Assembly: GCA_000992695.1 (NCBI GenBank)
Contig: LBUS01000006.1
Span: 1-64,000, forward strand
Direction: 5' to 3'
DNA length: 64,000 nucleotides
From: Candidatus Peregrinibacteria bacterium GW2011_GWF2_38_29
GTDB lineage: Bacteria > Patescibacteriota > Gracilibacteria > UBA1369 > UBA12463
The position numbers and the translations under genes are program-made. The notes under the pieces were generated by a model. It made no database searches, had not been told where the DNA came from, and saw only the letters and a list, made by a program, of their open reading frames with translations. Shown here piece by piece: positions 14,362 to 20,599 of the stretch; the stretch's first letter is position 1; each line of letters starts with the position of its first letter.

Positions 14362-16311
14362 ATGAAAAAACTTTTGATCTTAATACCGTTTGCAATAACA
14401 TTTGTTTTTGCAATATTATATCGTGGCGGAATCTCATTGCACAGCCATTTTTTATGGGCCGGACTATTATTTATACCGGCGTTAACGCTTTTATTTACGC
14501 ACAATAAAATTAAGCAACAAGACAAAAAAAGCCTATTCGCAAACATTTTTCTTATACTTTTTGTTGCAACATTTCTCTTATCAATTGCACTCGCACCAAT
14601 AAACAGCTTTGGAATATATGATTTTTTGACATATATAAGCGGAGCAGTAACGTTTTTAATAATCAGCCAACTTTCATTAAGTCAAAAAACACTTGATAAA
14701 GGGTTTACATTTTTAGTCGCATCAGCATCAGGATTAAGCCTTGCAGGACTCATCTTTTATATTTACCTATCACCAACTCGCCTATTCTCAACATTTGTTG
14801 ATTTCAATATGCTCGCCGTATCTTTTCCAAACGCATTCGCACTATTTTTACTTCTAATTATTCCAATAACAATTTATAAACTTTTGAATGCGGAAGGTGC
14901 AAAATTGAAACTTTATACAATCGCAACGATGCTTCAACTTTCAGCCTTCATTCTAACGTTCTCAAGGACATCATGGCTAATGCTTATCATTGCAGGAATT
15001 ATTGCAATCATCATTCTTATCAAAAAATTAAAAACATCAAAAAACTTTTTAATCTTAAGCGGAAAACGCATAGCATTCACATTATTGATAGCATTGCTTT
15101 TGGCTTATGGATGCTCGCTTTTCAGATCTATAAATCACGAAACGCAAAACCCATACAGCAAAATAACATTCCAAGCCGACGAAGGAAAAACTTCATACAC
15201 AGACCGATTAAACCTGTTTGGAGCTTCAATGAAAATCTTTTCGGAAAATCCATGGATAGGATATGGACCTTCAGCTTTTGATCAAATTGCAAAAAATCAT
15301 CAACACAACTTGTATTTAAAAATCGCTAACGATAGCGGAGTTTTTGCGCTCGCATTTTTCATCGCATTCTTAATCTTCATCGCTCTATCAATTAAAAAAC
15401 TAACACCGGAAATAATAGTCTTAGGAACGTCTATTCTACTTGCACTCGGTCAAAGCGAGATGGATTTTAATTTAAATTTCGTATCAAACTCATTATTATT
15501 TTGGGGATTTTTAGGAATAATCGCATCCCTATCTCAACAAAACAAAATTTCCAAAAAGCTTACGCCTGGATATAAAAACCCGTATATCATTTTAGCCGCA
15601 TTGTTTAGCCTTATTTTACTATTCGTATCCGCGCATGAAGGATTCTATAAATTAAGATACAAAGAAGGCCAAAGTTTATATAAAAATGGTAAATACGAAG
15701 ACGCGTTAATAAAATTCGAGTCCGCCGAACCGCTATTCTTCAAGCAAGATTTAAATTATTTAATTGGCAAAACATACATTCGAATGTCCAAGAAAGCTCC
15801 ACCTTATTCAAACTTAGGAATAAGATTTTTATCAAAGCTTCCACAAAATGAAAAATCAATTGCCGTAAAAACGGTAATATACGAATTATGCCTTATTAAT
15901 GAAAAAAAAGAATGTCTAACATGGGCAGTTCCGGAGCTTAAAAAAATATATGAATACACAAAATCAAACTTAAATTTAAATAAAAATGTTCGCATTTATT
16001 ATGACTATTTAACGGCTTTATATAAATCCAGATTAGACTACGAAATCAAAAATCTTTTACCGGAAATCCATGCATTTTTAGATCAATATCAAGTTGCAAT
16101 AGAACATAATGAACAGCTCGCAATAACTAGCGAAAACCCGGGATATGCTCTAAAAATACACGATCTTATTATTGATTTCGCAAAAAAATTCAAAGAAAGC
16201 GAATCTGAAATAAACAAATTAACACTTACAAAGGCAAGATTAAACCGCGCAATAAATAATGAAACAAGAAAATACAAAACCCTCTACGGCCAAGACCCGG
16301 AAGTTGAATAA
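14362..16311 (+). CDS. O-antigen ligase/polymerase-like membrane protein with C-terminal TPR-like region
   Basis: Polytopic N-terminal two-thirds; MKIFSENPWIGYGPSAFDQIA...HQHNLYLKIANDSGVFAL resembles Wzy_C; C-terminal helical region YKNGKYEDALIKFESAEPLF. Confidence 0.75.
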   Translation: MKKLLILIPFAITFVFAILYRGGISLHSHFLWAGLLFIPALTLLFTHNKIKQQDKKSLFANIFLILFVATFLLSIALAPINSFGIYDFLTYISGAVTFLIISQLSLSQKTLDKGFTFLVASASGLSLAGLIFYIYLSPTRLFSTFVDFNMLAVSFPNAFALFLLLIIPITIYKLLNAEGAKLKLYTIATMLQLSAFILTFSRTSWLMLIIAGIIAIIILIKKLKTSKNFLILSGKRIAFTLLIALLLAYGCSLFRSINHETQNPYSKITFQADEGKTSYTDRLNLFGASMKIFSENPWIGYGPSAFDQIAKNHQHNLYLKIANDSGVFALAFFIAFLIFIALSIKKLTPEIIVLGTSILLALGQSEMDFNLNFVSNSLLFWGFLGIIASLSQQNKISKKLTPGYKNPYIILAALFSLILLFVSAHEGFYKLRYKEGQSLYKNGKYEDALIKFESAEPLFFKQDLNYLIGKTYIRMSKKAPPYSNLGIRFLSKLPQNEKSIAVKTVIYELCLINEKKECLTWAVPELKKIYEYTKSNLNLNKNVRIYYDYLTALYKSRLDYEIKNLLPEIHAFLDQYQVAIEHNEQLAITSENPGYALKIHDLIIDFAKKFKESESEINKLTLTKARLNRAINNETRKYKTLYGQDPEVE

Positions 16312-16933
16312 AAAACCTGCAAGCAAACCGCTCCTCTTAATCGGCACAAGCAATCCTGGAAAATTCAACGAAATAAAAGAAGTTTTACACGGATTACCAT
16401 TGAAATTCATAATGCCGCAAGATCTGGGAATAAAAGATTCTCCGCATGAATCAGGCAAAACATACAAAGCAAACGCAAAAATAAAAGCAAAATTTTATTT
16501 TGAAAAATCAGGCGGAATAAATACGCTCGCAGAGGACTCCGGAATTGAAATTCATGCACTCCCAAACGCGCTCGGCCACAAAACGCGCAGATGGGGCAAA
16601 GGAGAAAAAGCATCAGACGCAGAATGGCTAACGCATTTTCTAAAACAAATGAGTCGTGTATCGGAATCAAAAAGAACTGCTGAATTCAAATGCACAGCCG
16701 TTTTAATTTGGAATAAAAAAACTCACATTTTCGAAGGATCCTGCAAAGGAAAAATAACACACGGGCCTGAGGCACCAATTTTAAAAGGGCTCCCCCTCTC
16801 TTCGTGCTTTAGGCCTGATGGTCAAAAGAAAGTTTATGCAGCGCTTTCCGCGCACGCCAAAAACAAAATCAGCCATAGAGGACAAGCGACATCTAAGGCA
16901 AAAACTAAACTAAAAAAACTATTATTATTTTAA
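16259..16933 (+). CDS. rdgB: Non-canonical purine NTP pyrophosphatase (RdgB/HAM1 family)
   Basis: LLIGTSNPGKFNEIKEVL; LAEDSGIEI; C-terminal KISHRGQA; overlaps 3' end of preceding gene. Confidence 0.85.
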   Translation: MKQENTKPSTAKTRKLNKKPASKPLLLIGTSNPGKFNEIKEVLHGLPLKFIMPQDLGIKDSPHESGKTYKANAKIKAKFYFEKSGGINTLAEDSGIEIHALPNALGHKTRRWGKGEKASDAEWLTHFLKQMSRVSESKRTAEFKCTAVLIWNKKTHIFEGSCKGKITHGPEAPILKGLPLSSCFRPDGQKKVYAALSAHAKNKISHRGQATSKAKTKLKKLLLF

Positions 16934-16981: not shown

Positions 16982-18376
16982 TTATTTTTCTATCTTCCTC
17001 CACTCTCTCGTCTCCCATCTAAGTCCACTTAATTCTCTATATGTGAACACTTCTGTGCCATCGTTCTTAATATTCACAGCCAAATTCACAAGCTGATTAA
17101 TTTTATTAACTTCCGCGCTATCAACTTTTCTTGGTGGCAAAACTTTTTCAAGAACAGCTTTTCTAAAAGCATTCTTATATTCTTCACTGAAATCCGCAAT
17201 ATATGTAACTCTCGAATAAACATTTGTACCAAAATAAATCGCAATACCAACTGCAATAACAACTATGACCGCAAAAACCGAAATCACCGCGCCTTGAACC
17301 CTTCTCCACAAGTCACCAAAACTAAACGGCTCTTCATCGGAGAATTGCTCTTGCTGAACTTGTTCCGGAACAGCCTCAAATCGCGACTCCATATCCATAT
17401 CTTGCGTAATTTGAGCCATTGGTTGAAAGCCTGAATCTGGTTGAAATTCCGGCTCCGGTTGAAATTGCTGCTCTGGTTGAAAAGAAGCTTCAGGATTAAA
17501 TTGAACCGATTCCTCCGGCTGAAATCGCTCTTCAGCTTGAAAAGCAACCTCCGGTTGAATTAATTGCTCAGATTGAAGTTCAGGCTCCAGTTGAACGGAT
17601 TGCTCTGCTTGAAATTCAGACTCTGCTTGAAAAGAAGCCTCAGGATTAAACTGAGCAGGCTCTTCCGGCTGAAATTGCTGCTCAGGACGAAATTCGACTT
17701 GCGCTTCTTCCGCAGGCTTTCTATCAAACATGTTTTGATTATTTTTTTCTTGCGAAAGCTTCATAACGTTTTCCTTAATTTGGTCTTTTAAACCGGCATT
17801 TTCGGTAATATTTATCGCAAGCTTAATGCTATCAAAAAAATTATTCACATTCCCAAAATAATTTATATGTTTTCCGGCTCCGGACGAAGCGGTAACAAGT
17901 AGCTCACGAACCTTTTGAAGCACATCATATATTTTTCTTGGAGCTTCTTTTGGGTGCATTTGAATCGTTTTAACGATTTCCGAATCAGTCATTTCTTCAA
18001 AAAACTTTAACCATAAAACTTCACGCTCAAGCACGTCCAGGTGCGAAACAAGCTCAAACATAGCCTGTGGAATCATTGCGCTTTCACCACCGGCATCAAC
18101 TTTAAAAGTATTCTGCAAAAAAACCGGTCTTTTGGTCCCACCGGAAACGCTTCCAGGCACAACAATTGGCTCATTTTTAACCAATTTCCAAGAATAGCTA
18201 TACATAAAAGGCAAAAACGGATAAACCGCCATAGGCTCAATATCAGCCTTCTCATAAACATACAAAAACAACTTTTCCATCATCTCGCGCACCTTCACGT
18301 CATCATATATTCTAAGCGTAAAATAACGATACGCGTCCAAGAAATAACGATCATATAATTCATTAAAATCAGCCAT
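16982..18376 (-). CDS. Sigma-70-like (region 2/region 4-like) protein fused through an E/Q/P repeat linker to one TM helix and an extracytoplasmic tail
   Basis: FNELYDRYFLDAYRYFTLRIYDD...; LDVLEREVLWLKFFEEMTDSEIVKTIQMHPKEAPRKIYDVLQKV (region-4-like HTH); repetitive FQPEEPAQFNPEASFQ segment; TM AVISVFAVIVVIAVGIAIYF. Confidence 0.65.
   Translation of the reverse strand: MADFNELYDRYFLDAYRYFTLRIYDDVKVREMMEKLFLYVYEKADIEPMAVYPFLPFMYSYSWKLVKNEPIVVPGSVSGGTKRPVFLQNTFKVDAGGESAMIPQAMFELVSHLDVLEREVLWLKFFEEMTDSEIVKTIQMHPKEAPRKIYDVLQKVRELLVTASSGAGKHINYFGNVNNFFDSIKLAINITENAGLKDQIKENVMKLSQEKNNQNMFDRKPAEEAQVEFRPEQQFQPEEPAQFNPEASFQAESEFQAEQSVQLEPELQSEQLIQPEVAFQAEERFQPEESVQFNPEASFQPEQQFQPEPEFQPDSGFQPMAQITQDMDMESRFEAVPEQVQQEQFSDEEPFSFGDLWRRVQGAVISVFAVIVVIAVGIAIYFGTNVYSRVTYIADFSEEYKNAFRKAVLEKVLPPRKVDSAEVNKINQLVNLAVNIKNDGTEVFTYRELSGLRWETREWRKIEK
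17407..17700 (-). repeat. Degenerate tandem repeat encoding [FQ]QPE-rich linker inside the sigma-like gene
   Basis: Recurrent FQPEEPAQFNPEASFQAE / FQPEESVQFNPEASFQPE units; DNA shows repeated ttgaaa...tc(t/c)ggctgaaattg. Confidence 0.8.
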
Positions 18377-18405: not shown

Positions 18406-18434
18406 ATTGTAAATCTTATGATGCAATATGTCAA
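18406..18434 (-). promoter_or_regulatory. Sigma70-type promoter for the sigma-like gene
   Basis: Minus strand TTGACA-17 nt-TACAAT; -10 about 30 bp from the start codon at 18376. Confidence 0.65.
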
Positions 18435-18925: not shown

Positions 18926-20599
18926 ATGCAAGAAACACGCGTTTGCAAAAATTGCGCTCAAAATTTCGAAATCACAGATGAAGATTTTGCATTTTATCGC
19001 AAAATTTCACCGATAATTAACGGCAAAACATATGCTATGCCTGCGCCAACTCATTGTCCGGACTGCAGACAAATCCGCAGGCTTTGCAGAAGAAATGAAA
19101 GAATTTTATATTCGCGAAACTGCGATTCCTGCAAGAAAAAAATAATTTCGATCTATCCGGAAAATACTGAATTTCCCGTTTATTGTGGGCATTGCTGGTG
19201 GAACGATTCATTTGATTCGCGAAAACATGGCATGGATTTCGACTTCAATAGACCATTCTTTGAACAATTTAAAATTCTTGAAAAAACCGTTCCACGGATG
19301 ACTTTATATTCTCAGGAGCAAAATAATACAAATTCCGAATATACAAATCATTCCGATTGGAATAAAAACTGTTATATGTGCATGAATTCCGCACACTGCG
19401 AAGATTGCTACTACTGCACAAACTTCAATATTTATAACAAAAACTGCGTTGATTGCCTCGCAATGCAACACGACGAGCTTTGTTATAACTGCGTCAGCAC
19501 AAAAGGATGCTACGCCTCAATTGGACTTTTGGACTGTGAAAACTGCGTTGAATCAGCTTTTTTATACAACTGCATCGGCTGTGAAAACTGCTTCATGTCA
19601 TACAATTTGCGTCACAAAAAATACTACATTCGCAATAAACAAGCCACGAAAGAGGAATATGAAAAAATCCGCACAGAATTATCCGATGCAAAAAACATGG
19701 AAAACGCACGCAAAGAATTTATTGAATTTATCAAAACGGCAGAACGAAAATATTGCACAATTCTTAATTGCGAAATTTCAACAGGAGATCATTTAATCAG
19801 CTGTAAAAACACAAAAAACAGCTTCTACGGCTTCAAATGTAAAGACATAAAATTTGCATATGACTTCGGAGAAATGAAAGATTGCTATGACATATATGAA
19901 CCATGGCAAGGCGAACTTCAATACGAATCGTATGGCGTAAACGAATCATATGGTATGAGATTTGTTAGCGTTGCGTGGAGAAATAACGATTTAACCTATT
20001 GCGATAGTTGCTTTAACGCTCAATACCTTTTTGGATGCGAAGGAATCCACAACCAAAAATATTGCATTTTAAATAAACAATATACGAAAGAAGAATATGA
20101 AGAATTAACCGGAAAAATTATCGAACACATGTTAAAAACCAATGAATATGGAGAGTTTTTTCCAATTAATTTAACGCCATTTCCATACAACGAAAGCGTA
20201 GCACAAGAATACTATCCTTTAACGCGAGAGCAAGCCGTTTCAAAAGGGTTCAAATGGCGTGAAAAAGATGCACGCGAATATCAAAAACAAACATGCGTTT
20301 TACCAACAGACATCAAGTCCACCCTATCAACAATAACGAACGAACTTCTAGCCTGTGAAAAATGTGGAAAAAATTACAAAATCGTTCCACAAGAACTGAA
20401 ATATTATAAAAAAATGAATTTACCGATCCCACGAAAATGCTTTGATTGCCGCCACATGGAAAGAATGTCACTCAGAAATCCTCGCCAGCTTTGGGCTCGC
20501 AAATGCGATAAATGCAGTACGAGCTTGGAATCCTCCTACTCACCAAATCGTCCGGAAAAAATCTACTGTGAAAAATGTTTCGTGGATTTTATTGAATAA
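18926..20599 (+). CDS. Cys-rich protein with zinc-ribbon (zf-trcl-like) domains at both ends
   Basis: ~40 Cys by hand count in 557 aa, many CxxC; N-term CKNCAQNFEITDEDFAFY...PTHCPDCRQIRR, C-term CEKCGKNYKIVPQELKYY...PRKCFDCRHMER. Confidence 0.75.
   Translation: MQETRVCKNCAQNFEITDEDFAFYRKISPIINGKTYAMPAPTHCPDCRQIRRLCRRNERILYSRNCDSCKKKIISIYPENTEFPVYCGHCWWNDSFDSRKHGMDFDFNRPFFEQFKILEKTVPRMTLYSQEQNNTNSEYTNHSDWNKNCYMCMNSAHCEDCYYCTNFNIYNKNCVDCLAMQHDELCYNCVSTKGCYASIGLLDCENCVESAFLYNCIGCENCFMSYNLRHKKYYIRNKQATKEEYEKIRTELSDAKNMENARKEFIEFIKTAERKYCTILNCEISTGDHLISCKNTKNSFYGFKCKDIKFAYDFGEMKDCYDIYEPWQGELQYESYGVNESYGMRFVSVAWRNNDLTYCDSCFNAQYLFGCEGIHNQKYCILNKQYTKEEYEELTGKIIEHMLKTNEYGEFFPINLTPFPYNESVAQEYYPLTREQAVSKGFKWREKDAREYQKQTCVLPTDIKSTLSTITNELLACEKCGKNYKIVPQELKYYKKMNLPIPRKCFDCRHMERMSLRNPRQLWARKCDKCSTSLESSYSPNRPEKIYCEKCFVDFIE

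Follow-up and report, generated by a model that had tools for sequence, protein, structure and literature searches.

A fused ECF sigma-like and anti-sigma-like membrane protein in Peregrinibacteria: gene ancestry and possible role as a sigma mimic

Gene and protein at the locus

The window, that is, the whole stretch of 64,000 nucleotides analysed here, corresponds to positions 1 to 64,000 of contig LBUS01000006.1 of Candidatus Peregrinibacteria bacterium GW2011_GWF2_38_29 (genome G000). It contains a complete ORF for a single-pass membrane protein in which a sigma-like and an anti-sigma-like part are fused (Table 1). The first-pass annotation had described an N-terminus resembling sigma regions 2 and 4, followed by degenerate FQPE/FNPEASFQ repeats, one transmembrane (TM) helix, and an extracytoplasmic tail of ~70 aa, with no separate anti-sigma gene adjacent. 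The sigma-like N-terminus is borne out by the family profile presented below, and the other elements are recovered as well: the repeats are detected by TRF, a single hydrophobic segment precedes a tail of about 80 aa predicted to be extracytoplasmic, and the window locus indeed shows no adjacent anti-sigma gene. One TM helix before the tail is also found in the relatives by hydropathy, and in L070 and L080 an additional hydrophobic window (residues 1-19) lies upstream of a conserved MD start; all TM calls are based on a hydropathy window only, and start codons are assumed.

Table 1. Features of the fused gene and its surroundings, in window positions
Feature	Position	Strand	Residues	Basis or remark
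Complete ORF, fused sigma-like/anti-sigma-like single-pass membrane protein	16982..18376	-	464 aa	ATG start
σ2-like domain	18167..18376	-	1-70	ECF sigma profile match; canonical contacts of R2.2 and R2.3/2.4 replaced
σ2-σ4 linker	18071..18166	-	71-102	Alignment, without confident structure
σ4-like HTH domain	17891..18070	-	103-162	Pfam/NCBIfam and profile matches
Anti-sigma-domain-like helical block, motif NYFGNVNNFFDSIK...	17741..17890	-	163-212	Family homology to N-termini of standalone membrane proteins
Variable linker with degenerate FQPE/FNPEASFQ repeats	17321..17740	-	213-352	Missing in G002 and other relatives
Single TM helix	17231..17287	-	364-382	Kyte-Doolittle mean 2.96 over 19 residues
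Conserved tail, predicted extracytoplasmic	16985..17212	-	389-464	Standalone tail HMM match, 4.7e-5
Housekeeping-type promoter-like site, TTGACA-17-TACAAT	18406..18434	-		Upstream of start; 11/12 match
Ham1/RdgB-type NTP pyrophosphatase gene	16259..16933	+		PF01725, 4.2e-40; syntenic marker for fused and two-gene forms

The repeats are real, although degenerate (periods of 18 and 36 nt), and they are present only in G000 and G001. In the congener G002, whose N-terminal half is 53% identical, the linker is short and non-repetitive, while the TM helix and the tail are kept. The repeats were therefore dropped as a key feature, and the repetitive linker is, judging from these comparisons, a recent, lineage-specific, and incidental detail.

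The promoter-like TTGACA is also found in G001, at the aligned place upstream of the fused gene, in a region where TTGACA/TATAAT-like patterns are common by chance. Since sites of this housekeeping type precede both the short sigma genes and the fused genes, and do not discriminate between them, promoter autoregulation was discarded as a test of sigma function. Large cysteine-rich, zinc-ribbon-like proteins recur near these loci (window positions 18926-20599, L051:2-1462, and downstream of the fused gene of L061).

Taken alone, the window protein yields only sub-threshold sigma matches, both in Pfam (Sigma70_r4_2, E=0.036, residues 108-141) and in NCBIfam (residues 4-43 and 96-159, with values of 4e-4 to 2e-3). 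A profile built from the fused family, in turn, matches solved ECF sigma factors over both domains, reaching 2.4e-15 with 6dxo, 8e-11 with AlgU (6in7 and 8z6g), and 3e-10 with SigW (5wuq), and the family presents the layout of group IV (ECF) sigma factors, in which only σ2 and σ4 are found, with a linker joining them. Pfam Sigma70_r2 and Sigma70_r4_2 are both matched by all 16 short sigma factors of relatives, the corresponding figures for fused members being 2/20 and 7/20. AlphaFold models built from two near-identical sequences have low confidence (pLDDT 53 for residues 1-220 and 49 for the tail) and hint at an all-helical pattern in the former and an alpha/beta pattern in the latter; a Foldseek search with the model of residues 1-220 (pLDDT 53) returned only noise.

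Two-gene relatives and the ancestry of the fused gene

In f2, f8, and neighbouring families, a short ECF sigma gene is followed, within about 40 bp or with an overlap, by a gene for a protein with one TM helix. The N-terminus of these standalone membrane proteins shows the pattern YFxx(V/I)...K..ENI.(V/I)...FK..LR, which reads like YFxxVIxKLxxAKKxENIxVDxxFKxxLR. In fused proteins, σ4 is immediately followed by the corresponding motif, and a homologous tail is present as well. In the window protein, residues ~171-205 match this anti-sigma-like helical motif, with a signal that is weak on its own (E=0.009, combined model).

The relationship between the two forms is supported from both directions. 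The HMM of the fused family recognises several of the standalone downstream membrane proteins when these are taken by themselves (E 1e-4 to 1e-10). Conversely, among 213 ORFs, fused proteins are detected with the standalone N-terminal HMM (4e-8 to 3e-6), and the window protein is detected with the HMM of the standalone tail at the value given in Table 1, whereas the best unrelated ORF reaches 0.03 or worse. When fused and standalone alignments are compared with hhalign, the probability is 97.5% for the motif and 91.9% for the tail, against at most 7.7% and 0.5%, respectively, in 200 column shuffles of each.

Gene order points in the same direction. At five f8 loci, the order is sigma gene, membrane gene, and Ham1, while at 18 f14 loci, the fused gene is followed by Ham1 on the same strand. 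In f1, to which the window belongs, Ham1 lies downstream but convergent, with one intervening gene in L061, and no Ham1 gene was found in the sequence examined at the fused loci L026, L062, L063, L065, L066, L070, and L078. Because the homologues of both halves are adjacent separate genes in related families, in the same order and with the same Ham1 neighbour, it is strongly supported by these sequence data that an ECF sigma gene and the adjacent downstream membrane gene merged to give the fused gene. The product of that downstream gene would be an anti-sigma factor, an activity suggested by its position and architecture. The first-pass idea of one protein replacing a sigma/anti-sigma pair consequently holds as a statement on ancestry, given the adjacent two-gene homologues and the shared Ham1, while its other part, a releasable sigma factor, is weakened by the residues described below.

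At several f14 loci (such as L067, L068, L069, L071, and L072), belonging to several genera, the fused gene and the Ham1 gene after it share an overlap of similar size (43-49 nt). The standalone membrane proteins (e.g., L009:345-1493, L021:71-1486, L093:2611-3741, and the rest of alignment A3) constitute a candidate anti-sigma family that matches neither Pfam nor any PDB sequence.

The closest orthologue, the only one found in a search of genome contigs, is encoded in the Peregrinibacteria MAG contig LBWJ01000005.1 and is 87% identical; no relatives were found on viral contigs. A search of 146 related genomes revealed the long architecture in 7 of the 8 genomes of f1 and in many of f14, and short ECF sigma factors of 180-200 aa in others. 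The first-pass annotation had proposed a search for the architecture in related genomes, and it does recur there: profile searches detect the fused form, in one copy each, in 32 of 89 genomes of the order, all of them from f1 and f14, and in a phylum-wide sample of 381 genomes, fused-length matches are likewise restricted to these two families. None of the genomes examined holds both the fused and the two-gene form, and the short-sigma profile scores at most 123 bits in the fused genomes, compared with 304 for a true short orthologue. In the tree, every fused sequence lies on one side of a single branch (99/99), a result that is provisional due to long branches.

The window genome also encodes four ordinary ECF sigma factors (L051, L052, L053, and L054), and a gene for a separate protein with TM segments comes after each of them, which makes the fused protein exceptional within this genome. 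In addition, four tandem sigma-70-type genes of ~300 aa are found on the plus strand of the same contig, outside the window (L055:2676-6316; G000:C6, about 89.2-92.8 kb), and two more sigma-like proteins of 606-615 aa in L056, a number of sigma factors that is unusual for a 1.2-Mb genome.

Sigma contact residues, selection and possible function

Residues were compared in an alignment of 31 canonical ECF sigma factors and 32 fused proteins. In region 2.2, whose positions we take, from general knowledge of the σ70 family and from the alignment, to contact the β’ coiled-coil (clamp) of the RNAP, an acidic residue (D/E) is found in 31/31 canonical but only 4/32 fused proteins, and the next contact (Q/E/D/N) in 30/31 and 0/32, respectively. 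In σH of Mtb, W81, I85, and N88 form the pocket/wedge for the -10 element, and their substitution impairs transcription (PMC6411747). The equivalents of N88 and I85 are Asn and Ile in all 31 canonical proteins and in none of the 32 fused ones, although the alignment of the window protein around R2.3/2.4 is less certain; the W81 equivalent is kept in 29/32 fused proteins, including those of f14. A gap-free HMMER alignment of the fused profile with AlgU places the same proline opposite the same Asn. By alignment, then, the sigma part of the fused proteins has lost the residues for clamping the RNAP and melting the -10 element that are expected of an ECF sigma factor, and has kept the sequence pattern at the level of the fold. 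The first-pass annotation had made its reading depend on both a σ2/σ4-like N-terminus and the residues that contact RNAP and promoter; the profile matches sustain the former, whereas key residues among the latter are missing.

In f14, the replacement residues are themselves conserved (P in 22/25, R in 23/25, and L in 24/25), which suggests repurposing rather than decay. The σ4 domain is better kept in this family than in f1, with most of its features retained, among them the Arg that is invariant in the recognition helix (20/25). Between G000 and G001, dN/dS values are 0.045 for σ2, 0.051 for σ4, 0.029 for the tail, and 0.118 for the repeat linker, in a comparison that leaves out the motif block, for which dS is not computable. 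Values of 0.03-0.05 in σ2, σ4, and tail indicate that the protein is functional, and a pseudogene was therefore rejected.

Because the residues that grip the RNAP and open the promoter are lost, the protein is probably a signalling mimic and not a working sigma factor. In the reading that we prefer, and to which we give about an even chance, it would be a membrane sigma-mimic/anti-sigma module whose gene derives from the fusion described above. The fusion product carries σ2-σ4, the anti-sigma-like motif, the linker, the TM helix, and the conserved tail in one chain, and its sigma part would no longer initiate transcription like an ordinary sigma factor. The degenerate sigma domain would most likely be a built-in ligand, bound by the protein's own anti-sigma domain and/or by the anti-sigma of a partner, in a membrane sensor that the tail switches and in which proteolysis may take part. 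Several points go against this reading, among them, for the window protein, the less certain alignment around R2.3/2.4 and the weak anti-sigma-like motif, and the low confidence of the AlphaFold models. Altered promoter specificity, rather than loss, is possible because the -10 contacts of ECFs vary naturally, with H or R at the position of N88 in some Mtb sigma factors (PMC6411747), and the retention of W81 and of most σ4 features in f14 also counts against it.

The main rival, possible although on the doubtful side, is a working ECF sigma factor of unusual promoter specificity, which, as in the case of IutY, would be held at the membrane and freed by a site-1 cut in the tail and then by an RseP-like protease. 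Its overall design is that of IutY (ECF243) and of ECF48/52/53, with their fused membrane anti-sigmas, both σ2 and σ4 are under strong purifying selection, and σ4 is well kept in f14. The genome also encodes two M50 proteins, one of them a 539-aa RseP-like protease, so that the search for a site-2 protease suggested in the first-pass annotation was successful and release is conceivable, but the freed domain might not function as a sigma factor: -10 residues of the N88 and I85 types and a Q/E-type contact in R2.2 are missing in 32/32 fused proteins, and the proposal of a membrane-held sigma factor released by proteolysis loses weight accordingly. The housekeeping-type promoters might also speak against it, but the short sigma genes have them likewise.

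An ex-sigma module exapted outside transcription control, either structural or as a binder of another cytoplasmic protein, seems improbable. It would agree with the lost core and promoter contacts, the conserved tail and TM helix, the housekeeping-type promoter, and a genomic tie to Ham1 only and to no regulon, but the σ4 HTH pattern and the anti-sigma-like motif retained in f14 suggest that sigma/anti-sigma contacts still matter. That a helical membrane protein merely looks sigma-like by chance is scarcely credible. The sub-threshold single-sequence Pfam match and the uninformative AlphaFold and Foldseek results would fit such a resemblance, but the profile matches over both domains, the alignment of fused and short sequences as one family, and the Ham1 synteny with true ECF pairs led to its rejection at the family level.

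Returning to the sigma-mimic module, a broader and tentative proposal is that it represents a new class of membrane signalling proteins, in which a fused ECF sigma factor became a built-in mimic, with its anti-sigma as target in cis and other ECF systems as targets in trans; in two families of one order of Patescibacteria, it would have taken the place of the ancestral sigma/anti-sigma switch. To our knowledge, few lineages are known to have sigma/anti-sigma fusions. Here, two families of a phylum with reduced genomes have conserved the fusion, and its two-gene counterpart persists at the same locus in relatives. A sigma half that has lost its contacts and is kept under strong selection would offer a natural series for the fate of a sigma factor after permanent tethering, and the fused locus exposes a candidate anti-sigma family without a Pfam model.

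Comparison with known systems

IutY from Pseudomonas putida (ECF243) also joins an ECF sigma factor, a membrane segment, and an extracytoplasmic regulatory part in one chain, and in both cases two genes that are usually separate have been joined; for the fused protein, the anti-sigma role of the second, membrane-protein gene is suggested by position and architecture in the two-gene relatives. However, the sigma factor of IutY, which is processed by Prc and RseP (PMC8999054; PMC5411451), is active after cleavage, while the fused protein has lost the core and -10 residues. IutY takes part in iron-siderophore cell-surface signalling, and no such partner is seen for the fused protein, whose anti-sigma-like part has no Pfam match.

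The actinobacterial groups ECF48, ECF52, and ECF53 share with it a single chain of sigma factor, cytoplasmic anti-sigma-like part, TM segment, and outside domain. One of their members, SCO4117, is a functional regulator in vivo (PMC5826349). These groups belong to a different phylum and hold a zinc-finger anti-sigma domain at the C-terminus, together with TM helices and extracytoplasmic modules, whereas neither fused nor standalone proteins show a Pfam zinc-finger match.

PhyR, from the general stress response of alphaproteobacteria, is a precedent by analogy for a sigma-type domain with degenerate contacts: its sigma-like domain, in which promoter and RNAP contacts are degenerate, titrates NepR (PMC8103513). 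The fused proteins present the same kind of domain, as far as sequence can tell. Nevertheless, PhyR, a response regulator, acts on NepR in trans, while in the fused proteins, which have no Pfam receiver-domain match, the sigma-like domain is joined in cis to a membrane anti-sigma-like part. A further comparison is provided by the standalone pairs of ECF sigma factor and membrane anti-sigma candidate of f2 and f8, which are positional and sequence homologues of the fused halves and differ from them in being encoded by two genes and in having a sigma factor that keeps all the canonical contacts.
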